From: Leeuwenhoekiella aestuarii
GTDB taxonomy: Bacteria; Bacteroidota; Bacteroidia; Flavobacteriales; Flavobacteriaceae
Direction of reading: 5' to 3'
NCBI RefSeq assembly: GCF_004104055.1
Contig: NZ_QOVJ01000001.1
Coordinates: forward strand, 1,302,001-1,366,000
Length of the DNA stretch: 64,000 nt
Position 1 is the first letter of the stretch; each line of letters opens with the position of its first letter. Under the pieces are notes generated by a model. It made no database searches. It saw only the letters and a list, made by a program, of their open reading frames with translations, and was not told the origin of the DNA. A program made the position numbers and the translations under genes. Below are positions 12,824 to 54,047 of the stretch, piece by piece.

Positions 12824-13358
12824 TTTAGGGATCGACCCGGGAACCACAATTATGGGGTTTGGCCTCATTAAAGTGGTGAATAAGAATATGGAGTTTATTC
12901 AGATGAATGAACTGCTGCTCAAAAAATATGATGATCCTTACGTAAAACTGAAACTTATTTTTGAACGCACTATAGAACTTATAGATACCTATCATCCCGA
13001 TGAGATGGCGCTCGAAGCACCTTTTTTTGGTAAAAATGTACAATCTATGCTTAAGTTAGGAAGGGCGCAGGGTGTGGCGATGGCTGCAGGTTTATCCCGA
13101 CAAATTCCTGTGACGGAGTATCTTCCTAAAAAAATAAAAATGGCAATTACCGGAAACGGTAACGCCAGTAAAGAGCAGGTCGCAAAAATGCTACAAAGTC
13201 TTCTCGGCCTTAAAACGCTTCCTAAAAATCTGGATAGTACAGATGGTCTCGCAGCTGCGGTTTGTCATCACTTCAATGCCGGTCGTGTTGAAACCGGTAA
13301 AAGCTATACCGGCTGGGATGCTTTTGTAAAGCAGAACGAGAAACGCGTAAAAAAATAG
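12804..13358 (+). CDS. ruvC: Crossover junction endodeoxyribonuclease RuvC
   Basis: A 184-residue Holliday junction resolvase. The RNase H-like catalytic residues are visible: Asp11 in ILGIDPGTT, a Glu in MALEAPFFGKN, and the C-terminal STDGLAAAVCHH with its Asp. It cuts four-way junctions made by RuvAB-driven branch migration. The start at ATG 12804 gives the normal N-terminus and lies within the 5' end of the divergent glycosyltransferase gene. It is followed by hemW 19 bp downstream. Confidence 0.95.
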   Translation: MKSEKIILGIDPGTTIMGFGLIKVVNKNMEFIQMNELLLKKYDDPYVKLKLIFERTIELIDTYHPDEMALEAPFFGKNVQSMLKLGRAQGVAMAAGLSRQIPVTEYLPKKIKMAITGNGNASKEQVAKMLQSLLGLKTLPKNLDSTDGLAAAVCHHFNAGRVETGKSYTGWDAFVKQNEKRVKK

Positions 13359-13377
13359 CTTTTTCAATTTAAAAATA

Positions 13378-14508
13378 ATGTCTGGACTCTATATTCACAT
13401 TCCTTTTTGCAAGCAGGCATGTCATTATTGTGACTTTCATTTTTCAACATCGTTGAAGAAAAAGAGCACATTGGTTGATGCATTATGCCAGGAAATGATT
13501 CTGCGTAAAGATGAAATCCCCGGTTCATTACAAACCATTTATTTTGGAGGAGGAACTCCCAGTTTATTAGAAGCTGAAGAGTTGGAGCATATTTTTAAAA
13601 CTATTGATGCTCATTTTAAAATAAACGCTAATGCTGAAATCACGCTTGAAGCTAACCCAGATGATTTAAATGAAGCTAAACTGAAAATGCTTGCAGCATC
13701 TCGAATCAATAGGTTGAGTATAGGTGTGCAGTCTTTTTTTGAAGAAGACCTAAAGTTGATGAACCGCGCACATAATGCAACAGAAGCAGTGCAATGTTTA
13801 GAGTTGGCTAAACGCTATTTTGATAATATCTCTATTGATATGATCTATGGGATGCCCGATATGAGTGATGCACGCTGGCATGAAAACTTAGATAAAGCGC
13901 TGGCACTTAATATTCCACATATATCGAGTTACGCCTTGACGGTAGAGCCCAATACTGCTTTGCAGAAATTTATTGAAAAGGGTGTGGTGAAACCTGTTGA
14001 TGATGCAGTGGCACAACGTCATTTTGAGATATTGATAGAACGGATGCAAAAAGCCGGTTTTGAGAATTATGAGTTTTCAAACTTTGGCAAACCGGGCTAT
14101 TATTCACAAAACAATACAGCTTATTGGACGGGCAGATCTTATTTAGGAATTGGTCCTTCAGCGCACAGTTATGACGGTGCTACTCGCAGTTGGAACATCA
14201 ATAACAATCCTAAGTATATTAAAGCGATACAATCTGGAGAACTACCCATTGAGCGTGAAACACTTTCAGTAACGGACAAATACAATGAATATGTGATGAC
14301 TGGGCTACGCACGATCTGGGGGATCTCACTAATAAAGATCGAAGAGTCTTTCGGTTTAAAATATAAAGAATATGTACTACAACAGGCTCAGAAACATATT
14401 CAAGCGCATTTGTTGTATTTAGATCAAGACCGGATTTTGGTCACTCAAAAAGGTAAGTTTTTAAGCGACGGCCTTGCAAGCGATTTATTTTTAATCAATC
14501 TTTCGTGA
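13378..14508 (+). CDS. hemW: Radical SAM heme chaperone HemW (coproporphyrinogen III oxidase-like)
   Basis: A 376-residue radical SAM enzyme. The iron-sulfur cluster motif CxxxCxxC is C11, C15, C18 (FCKQACHYCDFHFS), followed by TIYFGGGTPSLL, TLEANPDDL and RLSIGVQSF. HemW-type proteins lack the extra cysteine of true HemN oxidases and deliver heme. The N-terminal segment with a single Cys before Asp (HYCDF) fits HemW rather than HemN (CxxxCxxCxC). It is downstream of ruvC. Confidence 0.92.
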   Translation: MSGLYIHIPFCKQACHYCDFHFSTSLKKKSTLVDALCQEMILRKDEIPGSLQTIYFGGGTPSLLEAEELEHIFKTIDAHFKINANAEITLEANPDDLNEAKLKMLAASRINRLSIGVQSFFEEDLKLMNRAHNATEAVQCLELAKRYFDNISIDMIYGMPDMSDARWHENLDKALALNIPHISSYALTVEPNTALQKFIEKGVVKPVDDAVAQRHFEILIERMQKAGFENYEFSNFGKPGYYSQNNTAYWTGRSYLGIGPSAHSYDGATRSWNINNNPKYIKAIQSGELPIERETLSVTDKYNEYVMTGLRTIWGISLIKIEESFGLKYKEYVLQQAQKHIQAHLLYLDQDRILVTQKGKFLSDGLASDLFLINLS

Positions 14509-41697: not shown

Positions 41698-41917
41698 CTG
41701 GTTATTTTTTTATAGTTAAAAATAGGACAGAGCTCATTTTATAAAGTCAATTTCCAATTCCCGCAAAAATACGGATTGGAACCTAAATGGCTTTGAAAGC
41801 AGCCTACAAAGCATAAAATATTAACCGTAATGCTGAGGTAAAAGATTTGGCCGAATTAAATTTTAGGAAGTGCTTAAAATTTCTATCAAAAAATATTCTC
41901 AATATGAAAATCTTTCC

Positions 41918-41925
41918 TATATTTG
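41918..41925 (+). promoter_or_regulatory. -7 element of the tRNA-Leu gene (TATATTTG)
   Basis: TATATTTG matches TAnnTTTG and lies 67 bp before the tRNA. No clear TTG is seen at the usual spacing. The rest of the 295-bp gap between the dipeptidase and the tRNA shows no gene. Confidence 0.5.
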
Positions 41926-41992
41926 CACTCGCATTTTTAGAGATAAAGATGCAGATTTTTAACGGATGTCCTAAGTACGTTGAAAGTAGCAT

Positions 41993-42074
41993 GCAGGCGT
42001 GGTGGAATTGGTAGACACGCTAGACTTAGGATCTAGTGCCGCAAGGTGTGAGAGTTCGAGTCTCTCCGCCTGTA
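41993..42074 (+). tRNA. tRNA-Leu (TAG)
   Basis: An 82-nt class II tRNA. Acceptor stem GCAGGCG (41993-41999) pairs with CGCCTGT, with a discriminator A at 42074. The anticodon loop is CTTAGGA within CTAGA/TCTAG, so the anticodon is TAG (leucine). The variable arm (TGCCGCAAGGTG region) and the T arm (GAGAGTTCGAGTCTCTC) are as expected. No CCA is encoded. The 3' half, from 42024, is repeated at 52915-52968, so the tRNA is the integration target of the following island. Confidence 0.95.
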
Positions 42075-42077
42075 CAA
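42024..42077 (+). repeat. att direct repeat, left copy (tRNA-Leu 3' end)
   Basis: These 54 bases, covering the anticodon loop, variable arm and 3' end of the tRNA plus three bases beyond it, are identical to 52915-52968. The two copies mark the ends of the island. Beyond the core the tRNA terminator (42084-42110) is also repeated at the right end, with about seven differing bases in between. Confidence 0.92.
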
Positions 42078-42083
42078 AGGGAT

Positions 42084-42110
42084 AAGCCGACTTTAACGAG
42101 TCGGCTTTTT
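42084..42110 (+). terminator. tRNA-Leu terminator, island-side copy
   Basis: AAGCCGACT (42084-42092) pairs with AGTCGGCTT (42099-42107), loop TTAACG, then TTT. A twin lies at 52974-53001 at the other end of the island. Confidence 0.88.
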
Positions 42111-42239
42111 TATTTTGGTACAACAATGGTACAACAAATCATCTTCTTCAAAATTTCCTAAACTTTAACATTATTTGCTGTTTTTTGAGATCAATAGCTA
42201 TTGACCTTAAATGCTGCTAGGATTTTAAAGACTAAAAAT

Positions 42240-42452
42240 TTGATGAGACGATGACAGATGAAGATGAACCCACTGTTACAGGGGCTCAAGCTGTCATCAT
42301 TTTATCATCAAACTGTCATCAAAAAATAAGTGATGACAAAAAGAAGATTTAAAAAATCAAAAATGATGAAACGATGAATTTTTGATGACTTGGGAAGGTT
42401 GGTTTCTATAAGGTCTAAGAGGATTTGTCATCAAATCATCAAAAAATACACC
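42240..42452 (+). repeat. Cluster of TGATGA/TCATCA repeats
   Basis: In this 210-bp gene-free stretch, TGATGA or its reverse TCATCA, often as TGTCATCA or TCATCAAAAAATA, occurs many times on both strands (for example 42291-42299, 42305-42310, 42315-42327, 42331-42337, 42364-42369, 42383-42388, 42427-42432, 42437-42448). Pattern and position at the island end suggest iteron-like or regulator-binding repeats. No gene is visible between 42113 and the Fic gene. Confidence 0.4.
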
Positions 42453-42517
42453 CAAGTAGTGTGCTCGTGAAAAAGGAAGGAATTCTCTTTTTTTCTTTTC
42501 ATCAGCAGTGTTTTTTA

Positions 42518-42597
42518 ATATGTCGAAAAATTAATGATATTTCAACATATATTTACAGTGTGTCGATGCCTTCGACATAGTTACTTTTAAATGTCGA
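42518..42597 (+). promoter_or_regulatory. TGTCGA operator-like repeats before the Fic gene
   Basis: Three copies of the same half-site: an 11-bp inverted repeat ATATGTCGAAA (42518-42528) with TTTCAACATAT (42540-42550, one mismatch), the pair TGTCGA (42561-42566) with TCGACA (42572-42577), and a lone TGTCGA (42592-42597) 4 bp before the ATG. Such repetition is typical of binding sites for a regulator; the Fic protein itself carries a C-terminal winged helix. Confidence 0.65.
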
Positions 42598-42601
42598 TAT
42601 C

Positions 42602-43675
42602 ATGTACAGTCCTGAACAAGCCTATAACGATCTTCCTTTATTACCTCCAACTGTTGAGGTTGAAACCAAGAAAATTTTAAAGCAGGCTATTATATCCAAT
42701 AAAGTATTAGCAGAACTCAAGGGTCGAGCGGATGAAATTCCGAATCAGTCTATGCTTTTAAATGCCATTACATTACAGGAAGCAAAGGATAGCTCTGAAA
42801 TAGAAAATATAGTGACGACACAGGACAGCTTATACAAAGCTTTTTCTTCCAACATTTCGACTACAGATGCCCAGACAAAGGAAGTTTTAAGATATCGTCA
42901 GGCCTTGTGGGAAGGGTATACTGATTTAAGTAAACGTCCATTATCTACAAACTCTTTTGTTCAAATCGTACAGACTATAAAAGAGAACAACTCTGGGATA
43001 CGAAATGCGCCCGGAACTAAAATTACGAGTAATGGTAAGACCATCTACACACCACCTGAAGGCGAAGCCGTGATTCGAAATTTACTCAAGAATCTGGAAG
43101 ATTATATACACGGCGAAGAGGATGTGGATCTTCTCATAAAGTTGGCGATTATGCACTATCAGTTTGAAGCGATACATCCCTTTTTTGATGGAAATGGAAG
43201 AACGGGTAGGGTAATCAATATGCTCTTTATGGTTGAGAATGGACTTTTAGAAACTCCAATACTTTATCTAAGTAAATACATCATTGAGCATAAGAATGCG
43301 TATTATACTAATCTTAGAGGAGTAACCGAAAAATCAGAATGGGAAGCCTGGATTCTTTTTATTTTAAAAGGTATAGAAGAAACGGCGTTATATACTGTAG
43401 AAAAGATCAACTCCATTAACAGTTTGATGCAGGAAACCATTGTTTTGGCTAAAGAAAAACTTCCTGCGCGCGTATATTCTAAAGAACTAATCGAATTGCT
43501 ATTTGAGCAGCCCTATTGTAAAGTCAAATATCTGGTTGATAAAGGTATTGCCAAACGTCAGACTGCAGCTGAATACCTCAGTGAGCTTGAAGCAATCGGA
43601 ATCTTAAGATCGCAAAAAGTAGGCGTAGAAAACCTGTATTTGAATGTCAAACTGGTTGAGGTTTTAAAGCAATAA
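42602..43675 (+). CDS. Fic family protein, class II with winged-helix C-terminus
   Basis: A 357-residue Fic/DOC protein. The active-site motif HPFFDGNGRTGR (near residues 190-202) is complete, with the catalytic His, so AMP-transfer (or another nucleotidyl transfer) is possible. An inhibitory helix is present before the core: SSEIEN near residues 64-69 fits the [S/T]xxxE[G/N] motif of class II Fic proteins, which are self-inhibited. The C-terminal part (from about residue 290) reads as a winged helix: VKYLVDKGIAKRQTAAEYLS. The gene is the first cargo gene of the island and has TGTCGA repeats in its promoter, so autoregulation is possible. Confidence 0.9.
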   Translation: MYSPEQAYNDLPLLPPTVEVETKKILKQAIISNKVLAELKGRADEIPNQSMLLNAITLQEAKDSSEIENIVTTQDSLYKAFSSNISTTDAQTKEVLRYRQALWEGYTDLSKRPLSTNSFVQIVQTIKENNSGIRNAPGTKITSNGKTIYTPPEGEAVIRNLLKNLEDYIHGEEDVDLLIKLAIMHYQFEAIHPFFDGNGRTGRVINMLFMVENGLLETPILYLSKYIIEHKNAYYTNLRGVTEKSEWEAWILFILKGIEETALYTVEKINSINSLMQETIVLAKEKLPARVYSKELIELLFEQPYCKVKYLVDKGIAKRQTAAEYLSELEAIGILRSQKVGVENLYLNVKLVEVLKQ

Positions 43676-43814
43676 AAAAATTAAGATGTTTTTGTTTGAG
43701 TGTAAGTTTGATCCTTAATTTGATTTAAATGTATTAGGTATCATTTTCAAAATAAAGAGGATATTTTCGTTAATCCTACAGTAAAAACATAGCATTTTTT
43801 AAGAGCAAAGCGGA

Positions 43815-43870
43815 GAAAAATGTGTAGCAAGAGGGTAACACGCTGCGCGATGTTACAGTACACATTTTTC
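43815..43870 (+). repeat. 12-bp perfect inverted repeat (long hairpin)
   Basis: GAAAAATGTGTA (43815-43826) and TACACATTTTTC (43859-43870) are perfect inverted copies; inside, GTAAC (43835-43839) pairs with GTTAC (43852-43856) around CACGCTGCGCGAT-like sequence. It lies in the roughly 1.07-kb region (43676-44746) without a convincing gene. Confidence 0.6.
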
Positions 43871-43930
43871 ATTTTAAATCACTGATATTCAGCATCTAAT
43901 TTATCTCTCTTGGTGGTTTTTAGGTTTGAA

Positions 43931-43984
43931 TTTGCGACAAATGCGTTTTTAAGCCCTGTAAATAGGTAGATTTTTGCGACAAAT
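43931..43984 (+). repeat. Pair of TTTGCGACAAAT direct repeats
   Basis: TTTGCGACAAAT occurs at 43931-43942 and 43973-43984, 42 bp apart, both followed by related T/A-rich sequence (GCGTTTTTAAG and CCTGTTTAAAG). Possible iterons; nothing else is known. Confidence 0.5.
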
Positions 43985-44204
43985 CCTGTTTAAAGATAGG
44001 TGCAAGGGAGGATAATTCAGGTAGTCCTCACCACATTCTCCTACACTAGGTTTCGGGGAAAAAGGTTCGTCTAGAAGTCTTGAACACAGGCCAAAAAAAT
44101 CAATTAGTATCTTATTGAATGGGTAGGACTTTTTTGACCTGAGTTCGCCGGTCATTCTATCTTGAAATGGCCCTATCTTTTACTTTCGTGATTTATTTTC
44201 TTTT

Positions 44205-44366
44205 TGATCCGCTCCAGACAGCATACCTTTTTTGATCGGAAAGATACAGGATTCTAAATTAGTCGGGCGCATAAACCGGTCGGCTGCGCCTCCCTATTTA
44301 TAGCCCTCTTCTAATTTAAAACCCTGAAAAGATGGCCTATCAAAAGGTAATGCGACGGCTCTGGAG
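44205..44366 (+). repeat. Long imperfect inverted repeat with nested hairpin
   Basis: The left arm (44205-44262) and the right arm (44310-44366) are reverse complements with indels: CTCCAGA, GCAT.ACC, TTTTTTGAT and CAGGATTCTAAATTAG (left) match CTCCAGA, GCATTACC, TTTTGAT and CAGGGTTTTAAATTAG (reverse complement of right). The loop is itself structured (GGGCGCA with TGCGCC). The arms are about 60 nt. It could be an ssDNA-origin, oriT or attC-like fold, or a decayed pair of inverted sequences. No gene is convincing nearby. Confidence 0.55.
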
Positions 44367-44746
44367 GAAGTAAATGAGACAACCAGAACCCGTATGCGTA
44401 TTGATCTACACTACTATTTCAGCGGAGCAAAAAAGGACTTGCTCAGGATGAAATAAGTAAATGTTTTCGTTTAAGACATTTGATTGTGAGCCGTATTTTT
44501 AATGAAATCAGGATGGTTTTTTACAATTTTCCAGAAATTCTATTCGGTGAAATTTACTAATTCTGATGGTCTGTATTCAAGTAGTATAGCTCAACACATT
44601 GTTTTAAATTCTAAAAAACAAACTACTTTTATAGAGTAACACATTCTAAAAGCTGCTTTCTAATCAAATGGAACATATTAGTCGAAATTCAACCCAGTAT
44701 AATGATCAGACTTAAATATTATGAAATTTGAAGCTGCTTTTCAAAA

Positions 44747-45247
44747 TTATTGTTTTACCGGCCTTGAAAATTTCACTTCCCGTAACGTGAGAGTGTCATT
44801 TTTAATCTCGTCCTCATCTATCATAAAAATCACAACATCCTGCTCGTGGCTGTCTTCTTCTTCAAATGTTTTACAAATCTGAGGATAAGGTGTAGTCCTA
44901 AAAAAATTGATGTCAAGTACTTGCTTATCTTTAAGATACGATTTAGACTTTTTTAAAATTAGAGGAGGCTTACCACCGAAAGTTTTATAGGTTAAAGAGT
45001 CTCTTTGAGCGTGAGAAAAGTGAAAATGGGTATCAGACCAAGCATCTTTTTCCATTTGTCTAATAAAATAACCATAGGATTTTGGTATGTGTTCTGGATT
45101 AAATTCTCTCCTTGAAAATTGATATTCGGTTTTGTCCATCACTTTGAATTTTTGATTAAACTGAATATAGACGGTATCTCTTGCCTGTCCTAAAGAAATA
45201 GTACTGTATAAAATAATAGAGAATAGAAATAAAATTTTACTGGCCAT
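44747..45247 (-). CDS. Exported protein downstream of toxin-like module B, candidate immunity protein
   Basis: A 166-residue protein with a signal peptide (MASKILFLFSIILYSTISLG, cleaved after GQA). I do not recognise the mature sequence; it is beta-rich and charged, and ends in a TLTLREVKFSRPVKQ strand. It begins 10 bp after the stop of the broken module at 45258-45924, on the same strand. The same layout (HExxH module, then a small exported protein) occurs four times in this island, which suggests cognate immunity or partner proteins. Confidence 0.65.
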   Translation of the reverse strand: MASKILFLFSIILYSTISLGQARDTVYIQFNQKFKVMDKTEYQFSRREFNPEHIPKSYGYFIRQMEKDAWSDTHFHFSHAQRDSLTYKTFGGKPPLILKKSKSYLKDKQVLDINFFRTTPYPQICKTFEEEDSHEQDVVIFMIDEDEIKNDTLTLREVKFSRPVKQ

Positions 45248-45257
45248 ATTTACTTTA

Positions 45258-45924
45258 TTAATTGCAGTTAGAAGCTTTTGTTGAACCTGCTTCCGTATCA
45301 GAAGAATATTTTGATATATCTAACTGGTTATTATTGTAGTATTCAGATCCTTTAGTAGTTCTATGCAGACCAAAATACGATAGTGACTCGTAGAACTTAT
45401 CCCAATCCCAATAAGGTTCAGCAATGGAATTCCTATCATCAATAAAATTCTGGTCATCTAGATTTTGATGCACATCCTTTAGGGCTTCCTGCATTAGGCC
45501 TGTATAATGATCAGCCATAAATTCATGTTGCCAGCCTTTTTTACCTCTGTAGTTTTCGTAAAGTGCTTCAAAACCAGTATCAGCAGGAACTGTACCATTA
45601 TTTAGTTTTATCACCGTGGCAAAAAGATTTGCATGTATGGCTTCATGAAGTAAAGTCTGCATCGATATCAATAGCATACGAATTATTACCTAAGGGCGTA
45701 GTACAGCCAACAGCATCCGTGCCACCATTGCATTCAAAATTTTCTTGAAGGTTAAAAACTACATCAAAAGCATCTTCCCCAAAGAAATCTTTCAATAAAT
45801 CTATAATTTTATGCTGTTTGACTAATTGATTATAGGTGCAATTTATTTTTTCATTATTTAGAAAATTTGGGGATCTATTGATTTTAAAAACCTCCTCTTC
45901 AATCAAATCTCCATTTTTCATCAA
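45258..45924 (-). pseudogene. HExxH module B, frameshifted orphan toxin-like fragment
   Basis: Two adjoining frames encode successive parts of a module like the one at 49358-50470. The first (45643-45921, starts MKNGDLIEEEVFKI) has the shared junction and ends near YAIDIDADFTS. The second (45258-45677) has the metal motif TLLHEAIHANLF and the follow-up QHEFMADHY. Compared with the parent, about 18 residues before HExxH are missing and the frame shifts there. Upstream the junction DNA continues as SGGFDGDPIIDE in another frame, with an extra A (GATGAAAAATGG against GATGAAAATGG). The module thus has neither an intact start nor an intact core. Confidence 0.7.
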
Positions 45925-45955
45925 TTATAGGGTCACCGTCAAAACCACCAGAGGG
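45891..45955 (-). repeat. Module junction repeat, copy B
   Basis: On the minus strand, GGTGGTTTTGACGGTGACCC, then TATAATTGATG and the AAAAATGGAGATTTGATTGA run, nearly identical to the junction in the parent gene at 50012-50072 (GGCGGTGACCC… GATGAAAATGG). One extra A makes it frameshifted here. Confidence 0.75.
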
Positions 45956-46104
45956 GATTGCTATAATTTTTACCTGTCTAATTCCAAACTCGGTAATAAA
46001 AGCAGCAATTAGTGTAGTTGGTAATAAACTACGTTAAAATATTTTAGATATAATTGATATTAAGAAAATTACACTAGTCGAGAAACTTTACAAAATGAAA
46101 TATT

Positions 46105-46740
46105 TTAAGATATAGCTATTGCTTTTTTATCATCTATGATCCAAACACCATTTTCTTTTCTAAGGTAATAGCGTATTCCAACCCCATCTAGTTTACCTTG
46201 TGAAAAACCGCAGGTTATAATAGCTTTGTTAGCTTTAGTATTTACTACAAAATCAGAAAATGTTAAAATACCATTAGTGGCTTTGGTTTCCCAGTAAAAA
46301 TTTTTGTTTTCATCGAATAATGTTTGATTGAAGTAGAAATGATGATCAGTTGGAACTCTATCAATAAGTTCTAAATTAATCATAACGCCCTTCTTTAGGC
46401 GATTTGAGTCAAAATCTTGAATAAATTGCGAGTCAAATTCCTTAAATTTTTTGAGGTTGGTGTTTTGAACTTTTTTATTAATCGCAAAATTTCTCGATTT
46501 TCCGGCTTTATATTTTTTCCGCTCTGACTGTGGTAGGTGTGGTTCAGTATTTATTTTCAGGTTCTTTGAATTCAAAGGTTTTGGAGGTGGAGGAGGACTT
46601 TTGAATTCTTTAGTAATATCCAAATAGACAACGGTGATTATATTCTCTATTTTATAATCTACTATTTGTCTCTTGGGCTGCTCAGCGCAAGAAAAAATAA
46701 TGATACCTAAAATTAAGAAAATGGGATATTTACGAATCAT
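46105..46740 (-). CDS. Lipoprotein downstream of module C, candidate immunity protein
   Basis: A 211-residue lipoprotein: MIRKYPIFLILGIIIFSCAEQ gives a lipobox with the Cys after FS. A short PPPPPKPL stretch follows. The C-terminal 60 residues end with GIRYYLRKENGVWIIDDKKA, similar to the end of the product of 47336-47971 (CLYELKNKKWKISKVRELTL), so the two are related in this part. It starts 8 bp after the stop of module C. Its function is not established; the location suits an immunity or partner role in the periplasm. Confidence 0.65.
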   Translation of the reverse strand: MIRKYPIFLILGIIIFSCAEQPKRQIVDYKIENIITVVYLDITKEFKSPPPPPKPLNSKNLKINTEPHLPQSERKKYKAGKSRNFAINKKVQNTNLKKFKEFDSQFIQDFDSNRLKKGVMINLELIDRVPTDHHFYFNQTLFDENKNFYWETKATNGILTFSDFVVNTKANKAIITCGFSQGKLDGVGIRYYLRKENGVWIIDDKKAIAIS

Positions 46741-46748
46741 AATTACAT

Positions 46749-47183
46749 TTAATTAAGAGAAATACAATCTGAACCAAAATCGGTTGTGTTATTAACTTGT
46801 TTCTTATTTTCATAGCATTGGGAGTTTTCTTCCTTAGTTAGTGATTTCCATTCACCGTTATCATAATATCCATCATAGCCATATTTTATAAGCCCTTCCC
46901 AAGCAAACGCTAAATAAAATTCAAGATCATAGCGATTATTATCTAATAGTCTGATTGTTTTTGCTATTGGTATAATATAATTGTCCGCCATATATTGATG
47001 TTGAGCATATATTGTTTCAAGACTATTTGAGTTATCTGACTTGTAATAAAAATAGTAATATAATAGGTTAGTTCTGTCTTCTGGATCTATATCACCTTGA
47101 TGATCATTAACATATTTAAATATTTCAGCATGAATCCCTTCGTGCAATAAAGTCGTCGCCATTTCACTCACAAATTCAGCCAT
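46749..47183 (-). CDS. HExxH module C, apparently a recombinant fragment
   Basis: A 144-residue frame starting MAEFVSEMATTLLHEGIHAEIF. In-frame codons before this ATG (…YGRAHHEL) open only after a TAA, so translation can only start here. In the other modules, HELM..F..EMAT comes about 45 residues after HExxH; here HHELMAEFVSEMAT stands directly before TTLLHEGIHA. The order suggests that the end of one module was joined to the inside of another. The rest (QHQYMADNYI, then AFAWEGLIKYGYD) follows the normal module order. Unclear if it is expressed. Confidence 0.6.
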   Translation of the reverse strand: MAEFVSEMATTLLHEGIHAEIFKYVNDHQGDIDPEDRTNLLYYYFYYKSDNSNSLETIYAQHQYMADNYIIPIAKTIRLLDNNRYDLEFYLAFAWEGLIKYGYDGYYDNGEWKSLTKEENSQCYENKKQVNNTTDFGSDCISLN

Positions 47184-47335
47184 TAATTCGTGATGAGCTC
47201 TGCCATAGTTACTTGGTTTGTGTTATTATTTTAAATATTTTACTTGTTGTTGACTTAATTTATCTGACCTCTATATTACTTTTCATTAAACATCAGATTA
47301 GTTACTATACTTATAGGATAATTACCTATTGGGTC

Positions 47336-47971
47336 TTAGCCTAGGGTAAGTTCTCTTACTTTTGAAATTTTCCATTTTTTATTTTTTAACTCATATAGGC
47401 ACATCACACTATAGCCTTCACCCATTGTGGTTTTGCTATACCATATAAGTGCATATTTTCCATCTTTTGAAATTATGGGATTTGTTAAATAAATCCGAGG
47501 TGTTGTATGATACAAATAGTTTTCATTTGAAGATTTATTTATTTCATTTTTACTATCAAAATTCTGAAGCAGCTCTTTCTTTTCATTTGGGAATAGCTTT
47601 TTCAAAGATGTTTTAGGATATTCTAACTGATTCAGCAGGTAATCTTTTTGAGATAATTTAAACAAAGAAGTTGCTTCGTTATTAGTAAAAAAAGAATGAG
47701 GACTTGAAAGTCTCACTTCTTCTTGGAAAAACTTCGACTCAAGATTTTTCTTGAATTCTAATCCGTTCGAGAAAGAGGAGTTTATTTTAAAATCAGAATA
47801 TTGCTCCTCTAAAAAAGCTATTTGAATTACAAGTAACTCTTTTATGTCTTTAGTATTTGAAAATTTGCTTGTTGAAGCACAACTTATTGCCAGAGCTAAT
47901 AAACTAATAACAAGGACTATTTGCCGAATTGATCGCTTTACCTTTAGGCGTTGCAGTATATGATGTTCCAT
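47336..47971 (-). CDS. Lipoprotein downstream of module D, candidate immunity protein
   Basis: A lipoprotein of about 211 residues, taking the ATG at 47971 (MEHHILQRLKVKRSIRQIVL); an upstream in-frame start at 47998 is also possible. The signal ends in SLLALAISC, a lipobox. The mature part is helical and charged, with a C-terminal strand segment KYALIWYSKTTMGEGYSVMC similar to the lipoprotein at 46105-46740. The 5' end overlaps module D (stop at 47904) by about 68 bp. Predicted role as for the other small genes of the array: unknown, possibly immunity. Confidence 0.6.
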   Translation of the reverse strand: MEHHILQRLKVKRSIRQIVLVISLLALAISCASTSKFSNTKDIKELLVIQIAFLEEQYSDFKINSSFSNGLEFKKNLESKFFQEEVRLSSPHSFFTNNEATSLFKLSQKDYLLNQLEYPKTSLKKLFPNEKKELLQNFDSKNEINKSSNENYLYHTTPRIYLTNPIISKDGKYALIWYSKTTMGEGYSVMCLYELKNKKWKISKVRELTLG

Positions 47972-48707
47972 CTGGATAATTATATATTTCTGTTTCATTA
48001 TTTTGCTCGCTTAAAATATCATAAATAATCTTAATATGCTCTGGATTTCTATTTGACGGATTATTGATAGCATCTAAATTATTTAAATATTCAGGATAAG
48101 AATTTTTGAAAGTTTGGGAATTTAAAATTCCTCCAGAATATGAGAGATTTCTATAGTACGAAAATGGTAAATTATAGCCTGCTACATTTCCATAAGCAGA
48201 TAATGATGTAGCCATCTCGTTAATGAAATTATTCATCAGTTCGTGTTGAGTTTTATTGAGATTGACGGTAAAAGAAGTCCTATTGTATTCTATAAAAGCA
48301 TCAAATAGTTCTGAAAAATCAGGATCAGCTTGTCCCGTTATTGTTGAAAGTTTGCCTTCTTCAAACATATATACCAAAATCGCGTGAACAGACTCATGTA
48401 TTGTACTTCTAGTAATAGATAAATCTGTTACATTATTTAAATAACTAGCTCTAAAGGATATATTTACATCCATAGTTTTAGTGATAGGGTAGAAATAGAA
48501 TTGAGGGTCTGTACTGGCGTTACCATTTAAATTTTGATCTACACTAAATGTAAGATTAACTTTATCGTTGGCTTCAAAAATATCAAGCAATAGTTCATTC
48601 AATATTGTGCAACTTCCATAAGCAGATTGAACGATTTGTTGTGCACAAGGATACTGTGAGAATGTGGAGTCTATTACTATCCTGTCCTCTATCTCCTCTT
48701 CAATCAA
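47904..48707 (-). CDS. HExxH module D, orphan toxin-like module
   Basis: A frame of 267 codons with only a TTG at its 5' end (MIEEEIEDRIVIDSTFSQYP). It corresponds to the part of the parent gene after the junction: metal motif HESVHAILV at residues 104-112, then QHELMNNFINEMATSLSAYG, and a C-terminus with its own sequence. Upstream the junction DNA reads SDPIIDK and runs into a stop because two bases (GA) are missing relative to the parent. So the module lacks a normal start and signal peptide and is most likely a silent orphan. Confidence 0.55.
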   Translation of the reverse strand: MIEEEIEDRIVIDSTFSQYPCAQQIVQSAYGSCTILNELLLDIFEANDKVNLTFSVDQNLNGNASTDPQFYFYPITKTMDVNISFRASYLNNVTDLSITRSTIHESVHAILVYMFEEGKLSTITGQADPDFSELFDAFIEYNRTSFTVNLNKTQHELMNNFINEMATSLSAYGNVAGYNLPFSYYRNLSYSGGILNSQTFKNSYPEYLNNLDAINNPSNRNPEHIKIIYDILSEQNNETEIYNYPDGTSYTATPKGKAINSANSPCY

Positions 48708-48745
48708 ATCTCCATTTTATCAATAATAGGGTCACTTTTGGCTGC
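48692..48745 (-). repeat. Module junction repeat, copy D
   Basis: On the minus strand, GTGACCCTATTATTGATAAA and the following ATGGAGATTTGATTGAAGAG reproduce the parent junction with one mismatch and a 2-bp deletion. A neighbouring ACGTAGTTTAT..CTACAC stretch (48761-48785) is also found before copy B (46000-46036), so homology extends further out. Confidence 0.65.
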
Positions 48746-48966
48746 TACTATTTACTCCACAGGAACAGGTGTAGATAAACTACGTTGTTATACCCATATA
48801 CTCTTGGTAGAGGTATTTGACATAAACAATGACGCCTAACAATAAAAAGGTGATTTACATTATTTGTTAAAGGCTCTGTTAGAGCACTCCGCTTACTTAA
48901 TATTAAATAAACCCTATTCTGTATTAGGTAACTAAATTAAAGTTTCATTAGTATTATTAAAGTTCA

Positions 48967-49365
48967 TTAATAATCTATCCACCAAACCCGGGTTCTTTTG
49001 AATTTATCGTTTTGAAGCTTTTCAATAACATAGATGTGTTCAAATAATTGATTATACGTTTCAATTACTTTTAAGCTCTTTTTTTTAACCCCCTCATTAA
49101 TAATAGAATTGTGTAATTTTTCACCTTCCACCCATAGTTTATTTATCGTAGTGAATTCGATATTTTTAAGCCATTTACCAGAGATCGTATCAACTTGTTG
49201 ATATCTGCTTATTTCAAAAAGATTATCGTCAATATTATAATATTTCATATCTCCACTAGTAAAAATACTATCATTACAAATGTCGAAGAGCAAATATTGA
49301 TTTTTTTGACCGTATGAAAAAAAAGGTGTGGTCAAAAAAAACATTAAAAGGATTATCTTATTCAC
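48967..49365 (-). CDS. Exported protein downstream of module A, candidate immunity protein
   Basis: A small exported protein of about 132 residues starting at GTG 49365, which overlaps the stop of the parent gene (TGTGAATAAG). A longer in-frame ATG at 49392 would overlap more. The signal (VNKIILLMFFLTTPFFSYGQ) is clear. The mature part ends in FKRTRVWWIDY. The overlap with the preceding stop suggests translational coupling, as in toxin-immunity pairs. No family recognised. Confidence 0.65.
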   Translation of the reverse strand: MNKIILLMFFLTTPFFSYGQKNQYLLFDICNDSIFTSGDMKYYNIDDNLFEISRYQQVDTISGKWLKNIEFTTINKLWVEGEKLHNSIINEGVKKKSLKVIETYNQLFEHIYVIEKLQNDKFKRTRVWWIDY

Positions 49366-50470
49366 ACAGCTTGCTTCCACTTGCTTTCTCATAGGTTATA
49401 ATTTCTAGGATTTGTTGTTGCTCTTTATCTTTCAGTTCTTCCCACGTTTGAGTATATATTAACTCATGATTATTATTTGCATCTTTAATTTCAGATAACC
49501 CCTCCCAAGCTAAGGCATCATAATAGTCGTCAGAATGTTGTCCATTATCAAAATGTTTTAAACCTGTAGCTATAGTTTCCCTGTAATAGGCAGCCATTTG
49601 CTCATGATCCCAGTTTTTCCCGTGTATTCTCATGTATTCATATAATCCCGGGAAATCGCTTTGACTTACATTTCCACCATTGCGATAGACAAACTCCCAA
49701 AGCCTTGCGTGAATACTTTCGTGTATAATGGTTCTCGCAATAGTTAAGGTAGTATTTCTATTTTCCGCACGATTTTGATTTATACTTATTACAAAAGTAT
49801 TTGAGATACCACTTTGCAAAGGTGTTGCTGTAGAAGCATTTGTTTCATTGCCAAGCGTTGTGGACATTTTAAAAACAAGGTCAAACTGTGACGGCTGATC
49901 CCCATCCTTGAAGTTTTCAAGAATCCAATTAATATTATTGTTATTGTCTACCATTTTTTGGTAAACACAATCAGCCTTTCCGGTCAGTTGATTATCGATT
50001 TTGTAAACAATCTCCTCCTCAATCAAATCTCCATTTTCATCAATTATAGGGTCACCGCCAAAACCACCAGAGCCTCCATTGCCATCGCCCGGCTCACCTG
50101 GCCCACTGGGTCCCCCAGGACCTCCACCACCTGGGTTGCCCCCATCACCAAAGCCCCCGTCACCACCAGTACCAGTGCCGGGTCCACTCGGACCACCAGA
50201 GGAGCAATTACGTTGCTTTACAAAATAATAAGTGCATTTATAGCCATCATATCCTCCCGTACATATAAAATGATCAAATTTGAAAGTGGTGACACAACTA
50301 CTTTTAGAGTTATGCATACTTTTTTTAAAATTGTAGCCCTTGAATTCACCATTCTCCAATATACTTGTACCCATCGTTTTCCCCTCGAGGTTTAAAACTT
50401 CTATCGATCCCGAATACAGAGAAAGTTCACGCGCACTCTTCAACCAATTTTGAGTGGGTCTATAGCGCAA
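49358..50470 (-). CDS. Toxin-like gene, second part (glycine-rich linker, junction and HExxH module A)
   Basis: The 3' part of a lipoprotein gene. The frame is continuous with that of 50603-50872 except for one in-frame TAA (50603-50605), and the codons between 50602 and 50471 are open too; the start at TTG 50470 is therefore artificial. The protein shows an N-terminal domain with several Cys (DHFICTGGYDGYKCTYYF), a glycine/proline-rich linker (residues 91-139), the junction GGDPIIDENGDLIEEE, then a metallopeptidase-like module with TIIHESIHARLW (His250, Glu251, His254), HEQMAAYY and ALAWEGLSEI. The parent-type gene of the array. Confidence 0.65.
   Translation of the reverse strand: MRYRPTQNWLKSARELSLYSGSIEVLNLEGKTMGTSILENGEFKGYNFKKSMHNSKSSCVTTFKFDHFICTGGYDGYKCTYYFVKQRNCSSGGPSGPGTGTGGDGGFGDGGNPGGGGPGGPSGPGEPGDGNGGSGGFGGDPIIDENGDLIEEEIVYKIDNQLTGKADCVYQKMVDNNNNINWILENFKDGDQPSQFDLVFKMSTTLGNETNASTATPLQSGISNTFVISINQNRAENRNTTLTIARTIIHESIHARLWEFVYRNGGNVSQSDFPGLYEYMRIHGKNWDHEQMAAYYRETIATGLKHFDNGQHSDDYYDALAWEGLSEIKDANNNHELIYTQTWEELKDKEQQQILEIITYEKASGSKLCE
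50012..50072 (-). repeat. Module junction repeat, copy A (parent)
   Basis: In the parent gene this DNA encodes GGFGGDPIIDENGDLIEEE, directly between the glycine-rich linker and the variable module. Nearly identical copies begin modules B and D, so it is the recombination or replacement point of the array. Confidence 0.75.
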
Positions 50471-50602
50471 AATGTGACTTTCTATACTACTGTCGTAATC
50501 AACAAAAGTAACCAGGTTATCAAAATGCCTTACAGTTTTTGAGGCTTTGTTTTCTTTTGTTAATCGCTTATTTTGAAGGGCGATAGTGTATATTACACCA
50601 TT

Positions 50603-50872
50603 TTATTCCTGATTTTCAATTGCAGGTATATCGGTACCTGGAGATCCAAAAATGCTGGAGGAGAAATTGTTTGATTTGGTCGCATGTAATTGAGTTAGTT
50701 CTTTATGAACTTCAATCGGCAAATCATCAAATGCAACATATTGCTTATCGGCTGTCGCATTCAAAACCCGGTCATCTTTTAGTTCTTCATCACTTTGACA
50801 GCTGATCATTAAAAGCAAGCAAAGTGCATTTAAAAAAACAAATGTGAATAAGGAGGAGTTGTGTTTAATCAT
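50603..50872 (-). CDS. Toxin-like lipoprotein gene, first part (ends at an in-frame stop)
   Basis: An 89-residue frame with a lipoprotein signal (MIKHNSSLFTFVFLNALCLL then LMISC with the lipid Cys at residue 25). It ends with …IPAIENQE and TAA at 50603-50605. The frame continues with sense codons (NGVIYTIALQNKRLTKENKA) to the second part at 50470-49358. The intact gene would have 505 codons with a lipid anchor, a folded N-terminal region, a Gly-rich linker and a metallopeptidase-like C-terminus. The stop may be a decay mutation or a sequencing error. Confidence 0.65.
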   Translation of the reverse strand: MIKHNSSLFTFVFLNALCLLLMISCQSDEELKDDRVLNATADKQYVAFDDLPIEVHKELTQLHATKSNNFSSSIFGSPGTDIPAIENQE

Positions 50873-51032
50873 TTATAAAGGTATTTAAGGCAATATCTTC
50901 ATAAATATTTAAAGTAAATCTTAAAAAAGTTAAAATATGATTTTTTCTATTTCTGCTTTTGAATTTATATTGTTCTAAATAAGCGAGAAACACTTTTGAA
51001 GTGAAATATTATTTGACAATTAAATTAAAATT

Positions 51033-51338
51033 ATGGATAAATCATTTGTATTAGATTTGGGTCAAAACTCTATTGGTTGGGTAATTATTGATAATAATAC
51101 TGTTGAGGAAATAGGAGTATGTTTGTTTCCAAGTAAAAAAATAATAACAAATAATATAGAGTCAAGTGCAACTAAATTATCGACTTTCATTAATAAGAAT
51201 ATACGGTTAATTTCATTGATTATATTAACTGTGATTTTATTTATGATGGGGGTTCTAATAACTAAATTTTGGCAGTTTTGGATAAATCTTGCAATTGCTG
51301 GGATTTATTCTGTCTTAACAGTTGAAATAAAAAAATAG
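51033..51338 (+). CDS. Small membrane protein with Cas9 RuvC-I-like N-terminus
   Basis: A 101-residue protein. Residues 1-35 (MDKSFVLDLGQNSIGWVIID then NNTVEEIGVCLFPS) closely copy the RuvC-I segment at the start of type II-C Cas9: LDLGxNSIGW with the catalytic Asp at residue 8, and IGVxxFP. The usual bridge-helix region is missing: residues 36-58 are a short polar stretch, then two hydrophobic helices (LISLIILTVILFMMGVLI and FWQFWINLAIAGIYSVLTV) and a KK end. There is no cas gene or CRISPR array nearby. No known family is recognised by me; it could be a Cas9-derived fragment that gained membrane helices. Confidence 0.65.
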   Translation: MDKSFVLDLGQNSIGWVIIDNNTVEEIGVCLFPSKKIITNNIESSATKLSTFINKNIRLISLIILTVILFMMGVLITKFWQFWINLAIAGIYSVLTVEIKK

Positions 51339-51536
51339 TAGAAATTATGAATTGCTTTCATATTCCCATAGGAACTTGTAGGAATGATTCAGATATAGTA
51401 TTTGTAGCTTATTTTCATAATATGAATTTAGTATGAAAGTAACGAGCATTTGGAGTTGGGGGTTGACTGGATCGGTCTTGTATACCTGTAAATTCTTTTG
51501 CAAGTCAAAAAACACCAAAAAAATAGAATTCAACAC

Positions 51537-52751
51537 TTAAAAATTAACCACACTATTTAAAGCTTTATCGGTAGCGGCACTGGCAAAATAGGATTGATAC
51601 ATCATAGTCGTAGTAACGGAGGAATGCCTGTATAACTGCTGTAGCATTTGAACCGGGATTTTATCTCCTGCGATATTGCCAAAACTGTGTCGGGAGATGT
51701 GCATGGTTAGTTTTTTGGTAATGCCTGCCTTTTCTGCAATCGTTTTGAGTTGTTTATTGAGGTGCTTGTTCTCGTTCTTTGACTTAGCGTAGATGGTTTT
51801 GTCGTCCGCTCTATCAATTTCTTTTAACTCCGGGAATACATAATCATGAGGGCTTCTTTTATCTGCCAGATAAGCGTTTAAAATGGGCTTTACTTTTTCG
51901 GGCAATTCCAGAGAGACCAGTTTTGAGTTTTTATTCATGGTGTAATGAATCCGGTTGTCGTAGATATCACTCCAGCGTACTTTTAAGACATCACCCACAC
52001 GGATACCGGCTAAATAGAAACTAAATAACCAAACGTTTTTTGCGTGCGTTTCTTTCTCGGTCAAGCCTCGAAGCTTCTCCAAATTTTGAATTTCCTGAAC
52101 AGATAAGCCCACCTTATGCGATTCCGGAAATTTGATTTTAATCTTACCGGTGCCAAATGGGTAGAATTTTCGGTCAATCATTCCCTTGCGAATGGCTTTG
52201 TTGAAAATCAACCTTATATAGACTAGAACATTGGCAATCGTACGATCTGACAGCTTAGGTTTTTTTTTAAGATAAATCATAAAGTTTTTGAGAAAGTCCT
52301 CATTAATATCTTGGAAAGGGAGATCCTCGGTTTTAGCAAAACTGGCAATGTGATTTTTATACGCTTTATCAACTGCGACCCGGGAAAACTGCTTGGTGTT
52401 AACGATCTCTTCCTGATGCTCGTTAGCAAAATCAAAGAAGTTTTTGTTGCTTTTTATAAAGGCAATGTCGTTTTTGATTTGAAGCGGGGTAAAGTCTTTG
52501 TTTTCGGATTGAAGGTCGATTAAATATTTATTGATCTCCGTAAGTTTAATTAGTAAGAGGTTATTTAAACGGGTGGCATTTGGGTGCGCTGTTTTGACAC
52601 AGCATTTTTTGGAATCCCAATATTTCAAGTCGATATGATGCCCTAAATAGATGTAACTAGATTTTCGATTCTTGGTTATGCGAATGGCTAGTGGAAATTC
52701 TCCTTTTTGATTTGCCTTTCTACGTAGCGTTATGGCTGCTTTTGAATTCAT
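51537..52751 (-). CDS. Tyrosine-type site-specific integrase
   Basis: A 404-residue phage-type integrase. The N-terminal arm-binding part starts MNSKAAITLRRKANQKGEFP and resembles the Arm-DNA-bind domain of Bacteroidota integrases; a core-binding SAM-like domain follows. The catalytic residues are in AGIRVGDVLKVRWSD (Arg near residue 250), HISRHSFG (His and Arg) and HSSVTTTMMYQSYF (Tyr385). It is at the right end of the island, 163 bp from the right att copy and pointing inward, as usual for tRNA-targeted elements. It would catalyse integration at tRNA-Leu. Confidence 0.95.
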   Translation of the reverse strand: MNSKAAITLRRKANQKGEFPLAIRITKNRKSSYIYLGHHIDLKYWDSKKCCVKTAHPNATRLNNLLLIKLTEINKYLIDLQSENKDFTPLQIKNDIAFIKSNKNFFDFANEHQEEIVNTKQFSRVAVDKAYKNHIASFAKTEDLPFQDINEDFLKNFMIYLKKKPKLSDRTIANVLVYIRLIFNKAIRKGMIDRKFYPFGTGKIKIKFPESHKVGLSVQEIQNLEKLRGLTEKETHAKNVWLFSFYLAGIRVGDVLKVRWSDIYDNRIHYTMNKNSKLVSLELPEKVKPILNAYLADKRSPHDYVFPELKEIDRADDKTIYAKSKNENKHLNKQLKTIAEKAGITKKLTMHISRHSFGNIAGDKIPVQMLQQLYRHSSVTTTMMYQSYFASAATDKALNSVVNF

Positions 52752-52914
52752 ACTGCAGATTTAAATACTTACTAAAGGTACTTAAAATTTGGTACAACAT
52801 AGGTACAACAAAATTTGAAATGCCTTGATATCAAATGATTACATAAAATAGCAAATTTTATTTAACTCATTAAATTTCAATTGATTAAGTGTATTTTGTA
52901 GGGCTTTACTGGCA

Positions 52915-52968
52915 ACTTAGGATCTAGTGCCGCAAGGTGTGAGAGTTCGAGTCTCTCCGCCTGTACAA
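52915..52968 (+). repeat. att direct repeat, right copy
   Basis: 54 bases identical to 42024-42077, the tRNA-Leu 3' end. Here the tRNA 5' half is missing, so this copy is the scar that ends the island. The host region resumes with the duplicated terminator. Confidence 0.92.
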
Positions 52969-52973
52969 CGACA

Positions 52974-53001
52974 AAAGCCGACTTTAACGAGTCGGCTTTT
53001 T
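52974..53001 (+). terminator. Duplicated tRNA terminator, host-side copy
   Basis: AAAGCCGACT (52974-52983) pairs with AGTCGGCTTT (52990-52999), loop TTAACG, then TTTT. Read on the other strand it can also end transcription of the aldo/keto reductase, whose frame stops at 53026. Confidence 0.85.
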
Positions 53002-53025
53002 TTATGGTTTGATTTTAACCCTTTT

Positions 53026-54047
53026 TTACTTTCGATATTTAGATTGACGTTCTACCATCCAGCCCGGGTACAGATCCGGTTTGCTGCTTACAGCATCTAT
53101 TTTATTGAGATCTTCTTTACTTAAATCAATCTCCGTTGATTTTATATTCGAGTGCAATTGTTTGAGCGTTTTTGCTCCTATAATGGTGCTGGTCACTCCT
53201 TTTTGATGACGCACCCACGCCAGCGCGATTTCTGCTACAGAAACATTGTGATTTTTAGCTAAATCCTGCATCACATCTACCAGGTCAAAAGCCTTGTCTT
53301 TGTCTATGGTAGGAAAGTCAAAATCTGCTCGGCGCGATCCTTTTTCACTACTTCCTTCTCGGGAATATTTTCCTGTAAGGAAACCACCCGCAAGCGGACT
53401 CCACGGGAAAATGCTCAGATTATGATCTGCTGCCATAGGCACCAATTCGGTTTCTATATCGCGGGTGACCGCAGAATAAAAATATTGTAGACCTATAAAC
53501 CTTTGCCAGTTGTTGTGTTTTGCAATGGCCTGTGCTTTTGCAACCATCCACGCCGGCCAGTTGCAAATCGCAATGTAACGTACTTTACCGGTTGCAACAA
53601 TGTCATTTAAGCTGCGTAAAATTTCTTGTACCGGAACTTTAGGGTCTACCCCGTGTACGTATAAAATATCAATATGATCTAATTGCAAACGCTGTAAACT
53701 GGCATCTACCGAATTGAAGATATGATAGCGTGAAAGCCTACATCATTTGGTTTTTCACTCATGGGTCCCAACACTTTAGTCGCAATGACGACATCGTCTC
53801 TTTTGGTTCCTAAATCTTTCAGTCCCTGACCCAAAAGCTGTTCAGACTGCCCGAAAGAATACACGTTTGCGGTATCTATAAAATTGATTCCGCTATCCAG
53901 CACGGCTTTCAACATTTCATTAACTCCTTTCTGATCTACAGATGCGATCTTGCTCCACATTCCTGCATCTTCGCCGCCAAAGGTCATGGTGCCAAAACAC
54001 AACTCAGATACCATGAGTCCGGTATCGCCTACATAATTAAATTTCAT
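53026..54047 (-). pseudogene. Aldo/keto reductase interrupted by a frameshift
   Basis: An AKR of about 340 residues split in two frames. The N-terminal part (53706-54047, starts MKFNYVGDTGLMVSELCFGT) has the AKR start and DTANVYSFGQSEQLLG; it ends falsely at NDVGFHAIISSIR. The C-terminal part (53026-53688) has LDHIDILYVHG, WSPLAGGFLTGKYSREG and AEIALAWVRHQKGVTS. At 53733-53735 the DNA reads GGCTTTCACGC; one more T would give GGCTTTTCACGC and restore a single frame reading GFSRYHIFNSVDAS. So one deleted base breaks the gene, or the read has an error there. Confidence 0.85.

Follow-up and report, generated by a model that had tools for sequence, protein, structure and literature searches.

In this study, we asked what a protein of 101 residues that begins like type II Cas9 and ends in two predicted membrane helices could be for, and whether it is a genuine gene product at all. 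It is encoded at positions 51033–51338 (+ strand) of the window, by which we mean the whole stretch of 64,000 nt of Leeuwenhoekiella aestuarii DNA analysed here. The open reading frame is a member of a conserved protein family, of which at least 17 loci with at least 16 distinct sequences of 93–121 residues share a common layout, a Cas9 front end joined to a homologous predicted hairpin, and chance is excluded. It is almost certain that this family is real and that the first ~35, perhaps ~70, residues of type II Cas9 are fused in it to a conserved hydrophobic hairpin. With respect to function we tentatively favour, at a probability of roughly 0.3, a Cas9-like bait that is attached to a membrane hairpin and serves as an accessory to defence cargo.

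The gene in the window and its island

The gene starts with a RuvC-I-like segment of residues 1–35 (51033–51137, +), which holds the motifs LDLGQNSIGW and IGVCLFP and an Asp at residue 8. It is followed by a polar linker of residues 36–58 (51138–51206, +), by a first predicted membrane helix of residues 59–77 (51207–51263, +; hydropathy 2.84, AlphaFold2 helix 40–75) and by a second one of residues 79–97 (51267–51323, +; hydropathy 1.41), in which W.FW.N occupies residues 80–85. Residues 7–35 matched positions 5–34 of the NCBIfam model TIGR01865 (cas_Csn1) with an E-value of 7.5e-5 and 21 bits, the curated cut-off of this model being 100 bits. A previous sequence-only reading had described a Cas9 RuvC-I-like N-terminus with the catalytic Asp, in agreement with this match and with the Asp found in all 16 distinct members, and a membrane hairpin, for which AlphaFold2 likewise predicts two helices, the first being clear by hydropathy and the second mildly hydrophobic. 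Its claim that a polar linker replaces the bridge helix holds for the window copy; in the members of the genomes G634 and G180, alignment extension suggests a basic, bridge-helix-like stretch. A Pfam search with the window protein gave no useful match and a PDB search with the single sequence none at all; the AlphaFold2 model of this protein is weak (pLDDT 66; strands 3–8 and 15–20, two helices), and Foldseek of this weak model against the PDB returned no meaningful match.

As proposed earlier, the gene resides on a mobile island. An 88-nt direct repeat is present in a left copy (attL, 42024–42111), which covers the 3′ end of a tRNA-Leu (41993–42075, +), the insertion target, and extends beyond it, and in a right copy (attR, 52915–53002) of 95% identity. 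Their spacing of 10891 delimits an island of 10.9 kb within tRNA-Leu, and in the sister genome G005, whose locus was the one of four sister loci to include the tRNA, this site is empty, the tRNA being followed directly by the right-flank gene. The member gene adjoins a tyrosine integrase (Arm-DNA-bind_5, SAM_5, Phage_integrase; 51537–52751, −), and no co-directional gene is close by. Just inside the left island end, a SoFic-like Fic protein (42602–43675, +) is carried as cargo. We found no CRISPR-like array in 41900–53100, no RNA family other than the tRNA in the island and no second RuvC-I motif in the 16 fetched member loci (9.8–19.5 kb each), in line with the earlier statement, made for 50880–51540, that CRISPR repeats and further cas pieces were not seen. 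The island additionally encodes, within 45258–50470 (−), four predicted proteins with HE[AGS][IV]HA motifs (45258–45677, 46749–47183, 47904–48707, 49358–50470) in a region containing shared repeats of 32 and 39 nt; two of these proteins had no match in Pfam, and they are possibly metallopeptidase-like cargo.

A Cas9 front end on a predicted hairpin

Among the 13 genomes of the window's genus, only the window's own carries a member. A family-wide sample of 397 genomes, presumably Flavobacteriaceae, contained 38 with some match at an E-value of 0.01, and G180 provided the sole full-length relative besides the window's own protein (42% over residues 3–100, E 5.1e-14; 41% in the multiple alignment), the remaining matches being classed as Cas9 N-termini or weak noise by frame length and coverage. 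A two-row alignment query revealed G634 as one new member among 395 genomes of the order, and a three-row query revealed short full-length members in 11 of the 299 genomes of its genus g128, which is Flavobacterium. No new member was present in a phylum sample of 395 genomes; the genus, family, order and phylum samples overlap. Alignment scans gave one member contig (L112) among viral contigs and, in the best 80 of 474 relatives from genome contigs, at least six members, three of them already known and the new ones originating from F. succinicans DD5b, with a protein identical to that of G800, from F. croceum and from a Flavobacteriaceae MAG. Single-sequence scans of genome contigs, viral contigs, plasmids and phages yielded nothing full-length except the query; members were reached only via alignment queries or searches of genomes at genus or family level. 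The frame thus recurs in relatives, from G180 to the 11 Flavobacterium genomes, and this conserved family rules out the chance relic that the sequence-only reading had also considered.

Several candidates were set aside. In 17 weak short-frame loci of the family sample, the RuvC-I motif was absent from the frames shown, and the short-frame matches of L043, L057, L195, L203 and G746 correspond to fragments of Cas9 or to the ends of contigs. A 61-aa frame of G415 (L230 268–453, −) has a Cas9-like start without the hairpin and is either a broken cas9 or a free-standing start, while a 73-aa two-helix protein of G1023 (E 6e-4) was judged different by inspection and left out.

The similarity to Cas9 persists in profile comparison. 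All 16 distinct members matched the Cas9 model of NCBIfam with scores under the cut-off (best E 8e-17; 20–59 bits for 13 member loci against the required 100) as well as two to three PADLOC Cas9 models (best 1.9e-15). In local mode, hhalign aligned columns 1–38 of the family profile to a Cas9 N-terminal alignment with a probability of 99.6% and an E-value of 5.7e-24, the latter referring to one single comparison. Residues 1–21 of the members align without gaps, and L7, D8, G10, S13, I14, G15, W16 and D20 are invariant in 16/16. The same positions are conserved to 0.97–1.00 in 116 Cas9 N-termini, except for D20 at 0.66, where the values at D8, G10, S13, G15 and W16 arise partly by construction, the comparison set having been chosen by motif pattern. 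T11 and N12, at 0.96–0.98 in the Cas9 set, are found in 12/16 members. The register of the start methionine is that of 107 of the 116 Cas9s.

How far the likeness extends differs between members. The alignment of the G634 protein with Cas9 (51% over residues 1–66, E 2e-18) runs into the basic stretch after RuvC-I, which resembles the bridge helix and is also present in G180, whereas the linker of the other members is shorter. From residue 37 on, the tails of G634 and G180 have no Cas9 match of their own, and for the corresponding part of the members the best match in the Cas9 set was not significant (E 0.034). The HNH, RuvC-II/III, REC and PAM-interacting regions are missing, all member frames ending at 93–121 residues. 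In place of the complete RNase H fold of RuvC and RuvX, to which only partial matches were obtained (best E 3.5e-5), three predicted strands are followed by helices. Because RuvC-II, RuvC-III and HNH are absent, a nuclease role is ruled out as judged from the domain content. Of the earlier suggestion of an independent RNase H-fold fragment, an exapted three-strand unit may still apply, but the fragment is too short for a nuclease.

The F. frigoris member, modelled with AlphaFold2 from a 13-row alignment (mean pLDDT 74, pTM 0.36), displays predicted strands 3–9, 13–20 and 26–33 and helices 48–72 and 77–99. Ranks 1–25 of a Foldseek search of this model against the PDB comprise 22 entries titled Cas9, two titled 'cas and anti-cas complex' and one titled 'protein from bacteria', with a best E-value of 0.011 and none below 0.001. 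At ranks 1–24, 63–77 columns superimpose at 11–16 Å, so that the real fit is confined to the meander, while rank 25, the SaCas9 entry 8zcy_A, covers 32 columns at 1.1 Å with 47% identity. Acetate and propionate kinases fit this meander equally well (31–33 columns, 0.7–1.1 Å, 15–27% identity), and on the level of these models the meander is structurally not unique to Cas9 but occurs in ASKHA kinases too.

In the hairpin, W and N of the W.FW.N stretch are invariant in 14/14 rows, and F and the second W reach at least 90%. Hydropathy in 19-residue windows picked both helices in 12/16 members; in the other four the second helix was not picked and residues 1–19 were chosen as second window. Where picked, the second helix is mildly hydrophobic (0.68–1.64). 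A search of 111 genomes with the hairpin alone gave eight matches, of which four were members with E-values of at most 2e-17. The same search of viral contigs returned L112 again and nothing else. The four weak matches in the genomes (E 0.001–0.007) were discarded, three having internal stops and the one in G779 lying in an unrelated-looking membrane protein. Among these 111 genomes, no convincing hairpin occurred apart from the Cas9 segment. The hairpin matched no family of Pfam, NCBIfam, PADLOC or PHROGs at an E-value of 0.001.

Neighbourhoods and host Cas9

The surroundings of the other members were annotated by HMM scans of chosen genes in the fetched loci. In six loci the member follows an AbiEii-like gene (Pfam on the copy of L106, E 7.5e-5), and five of these six members lie near genes which we take to be conjugative-element genes; in L110 the member comes after DUF6577 and AbiEii. 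In five further loci (L105, L111, L115, L116, L119) it sits 8 bp before a UPF0489-like gene (Pfam on the copy of L116, E 1.7e-5 and 25.7 bits, just under the cut-off of 27), and two of these five encode identical member proteins. The G180 member is located between an ABC-3C locus and FRG, the G634 member before DUF6994 with a PADLOC 4TM effector upstream, and the G982 member after DUF6904. In L112 the member lies beside integrase-like genes and follows a Wadjet-like operon; one product of this operon is MksE by Pfam, another matches JetD weakly (E 1.9e-4), and the other subunits remain unmatched. Type I and IIG restriction and SIR2 were identified by HMM as other neighbours, and PADLOC gave no match to the AbiEii pair of L106, to UPF0489, to three Wadjet-like subunits and a further part, or to proteins of 671 aa in L105, 676 aa in L109 and 305 aa in L116. 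From gene content we infer mobile carriage of the loci other than the window's.

These neighbours also occur on their own, UPF0489 without a member in G811 and on four plasmids, and AbiEii-like pairs without a member on both of the Pseudomonas plasmids that were inspected out of 49 matching records. A small membrane protein precedes UPF0489 in two of its five member-less loci and is absent in three. These small proteins, directly upstream of UPF0489 at L224 3549–3920 and L223 1406–1846 (−) (Hymenobacter monticola, BREX-adjacent, and G811), have C-terminal hydrophobic segments and N-termini unlike those of the members.

Some further features of the loci were observed. A protein of ~140 aa (IKTH...NKG.NSGKP) lies beyond the member in L102, L103, L105, L110, L111, L115, L116 and L119 and suggests a shared hotspot or element backbone. 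The AbiEii-like gene of G1004 (L109 9919–10683, −) appears to be broken into two short frames, the adjacent member being intact, and an LmuB-like/ABC-3C ATPase at L031 12095–13807 is divided into two frames (12095–12994 and 13058–13807), possibly by interruption.

Short fusion proteins of this kind, whose occurrence with or without type II CRISPR had been raised as a question, exist in Bacteroidota relatives with and without Cas9 in the genome. In genus g128, Cas9 is found above the cut-off in 99 of 299 genomes, namely in 5 of the 11 with a member and in 94 of the 288 without (odds ratio 1.7, Fisher p 0.51). If G180, which has Cas9, and the window's genome G000, which has none over the cut-off, are added, 6 of 13 member genomes carry Cas9, and in all six cas9 is located on another contig than the member. 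A significant excess of Cas9 in genomes with a member was not observed.

Possible functions and known systems

A relic or a chance reading frame, to which we give next to no credence, would fit the short and lone gene in the window and its absence from 12 of the 13 genomes of the genus. It is contradicted by the at least 17 intact diverged loci, by a dN/dS below 1 for linker and hairpin in three groups (0.39, 0.15, 0.46) and by the 8-bp gap before UPF0489 that is kept in five loci, two of them with the same protein sequence. For the N-terminus, dN/dS amounts to 0.12, 0.54 and 1.58 in the three groups and to 2.96 for residues 22–33 in group 1, all resting on few sites. It is improbable, too, that the 5′ end is kept as a cas9-start-like piece of DNA or RNA, such as a guide target or a recombination or regulatory site. 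In favour of this explanation, pS within groups is lower in codons 1–21 than in linker and hairpin in all three cases (0.105 v 0.192, 0.145 v 0.494, 0.052 v 0.240), a comparison of few synonymous sites; the N-terminal codon identity of the g1–g2 pair is 0.85, and motif-anchored codon identity is higher between diverged members (0.55) than between diverged Cas9 pairs (0.445). However, where residues are identical between groups, the same codon is used at a rate of 0.49 for residues 2–21 and of 0.52 elsewhere in the same genes, with 0.39 expected from local codon usage, and members agree with Cas9 codons at 0.40–0.52, about like the diverged Cas9 pairs. Since inter-group codon identity is not raised in the N-terminus, selection acts on the peptide, and there is no convincing extra constraint on the nucleotide level.

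If the peptide is what counts, it could be directed against Cas9 itself. The fragment would then be a decoy of the mobile element, protecting its carrier by disturbing assembly, localisation or synthesis of the host Cas9, either by trapping a Cas9-specific factor at the membrane or by competing as a defective piece. The window copy does sit on an integrated island, Cas9 is present in 5 of the 11 g128 member genomes and in G180, and Cas-homologous anti-CRISPRs exist in AcrIB3 and AcrIB4, as described in the review PMC13131331. We nevertheless consider this unlikely, since Cas9 is not significantly enriched (p 0.51), the near-Cas9 consensus is kept in Cas9-less genomes too, the retained piece of three strands, mostly without bridge helix, seems too small to bind guide RNA or DNA, and the membrane anchor is left unexplained. 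A stronger competitor is exaptation without any present link to Cas9, in which the three-strand unit of RuvC-I would serve as a generic folding, oligomerisation or ligand-binding head of a small pore-forming or stress-type membrane protein of defence operons. This agrees with the 7 of 13 member genomes without Cas9 over the cut-off, with the relaxation of T11 and N12 to 12/16, with D20 being invariant in the family at 0.66 in the Cas9 set, and with the occurrence of the meander in ASKHA kinases. Yet D8, G10, S13, G15 and W16 together with the exact N-terminal register, kept in 16/16, exceed what a generic beta unit needs. We rate exaptation about level with a bait and chose the bait as the more explanatory of the two.

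We propose a model in which the Cas9-like N-terminus would face the cytoplasm as a bait and recognition element; it would be aimed at a phage or mobile-element factor acting against Cas9 via its conserved N-terminus or its RuvC-I sheet. Once bound or removed, the bait would switch the membrane hairpin or an adjacent toxin-like product (AbiEii, FRG, UPF0489), whereby the cell would be protected or shut down, regardless of Cas9 in the host. We prefer the bait since more of what has been retained follows from it; it would account for the Cas9 consensus with its start register, for the action of selection on amino acids, for occurrence irrespective of Cas9 in the host and for the defence genes nearby. 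The small hydrophobic-tailed proteins before UPF0489 in two of the five member-less loci lend weak further support, and it speaks against a bait that no single partner gene is constant across the loci, that partner genes also occur without a member and that the window copy lacks a nearby co-directional gene. A more specific version, which we regard as doubtful, is a guard against anti-Cas9 weapons: mobile defence islands would carry a membrane effector whose exposed N-terminus mimics the Cas9 start, and a phage factor reading the nascent or folded N-terminus of Cas9 would be trapped by this effector or would trigger it and its operon partner. The N-terminus would be an exchangeable module, with other small membrane proteins occupying the corresponding position before UPF0489. 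To our knowledge, recognition of Cas9 through RuvC-I or its N-terminus has been described for no anti-Cas9 protein.

It seems that bacteria have put the beginning of Cas9 to a use other than DNA cleavage. Apparently, this piece of the most widely known CRISPR nuclease was split off and attached to a predicted hairpin, and the fusion was maintained by selection in diverged loci, including those of bacteria that lack Cas9. If it is a bait, anti-Cas9 factors which recognise the start of Cas9 would be expected as a class, and the bait would offer a direct handle on them; if it is a decoy, it would constitute a Cas9-derived anti-CRISPR. The proteins are small and easily expressed and tested, and they are missing from the curated libraries searched. 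No curated family of Pfam, NCBIfam, PADLOC or PHROGs holds the members, matches below 0.001 being those of the N-terminus to Cas9, Cas12d and RuvC/RuvX, and a literature search, lying outside most subscription papers and bioRxiv preprints, gave no description of such a family. The family is thus apparently undescribed, as the sequence-only reading had supposed for this layout.

Compared to known systems, the members resemble Cas9 (TIGR01865) over residues 1–38 by profile, in the register of the start methionine, in the catalytic Asp and perhaps, in G634 and G180, in a bridge-helix-like stretch, but they have a predicted membrane hairpin instead of the REC, HNH, RuvC-II/III and PAM domains. With SLATT and S-4TM proteins, which we take to be small two- and four-helix membrane effectors of defence systems, they would share a short effector-like hairpin, a cytoplasmic head and location in defence loci, as far as predicted, although the hairpin matches no such family at an E-value of 0.001. 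We know of no Cas9 counterpart to a reader of the AcrVA2 type. As described in the review PMC13131331, AcrIB3, which is Cas5-like, and AcrIB4, which resembles the C-terminus of Cas8b, are like the members derived from pieces of Cas effectors and devoid of nuclease action; in contrast to the predicted membrane-anchored type II members, which show no significant association with host Cas9, they belong to type I and target the host Cascade. According to the same review, AcrVA2 reads the nascent N-terminus of Cas12a by its amino acids; this is a precedent in that a Cas effector can be recognised by its conserved N-terminal peptide. The difference is that AcrVA2 is the reader, while the members would replicate the peptide being read.
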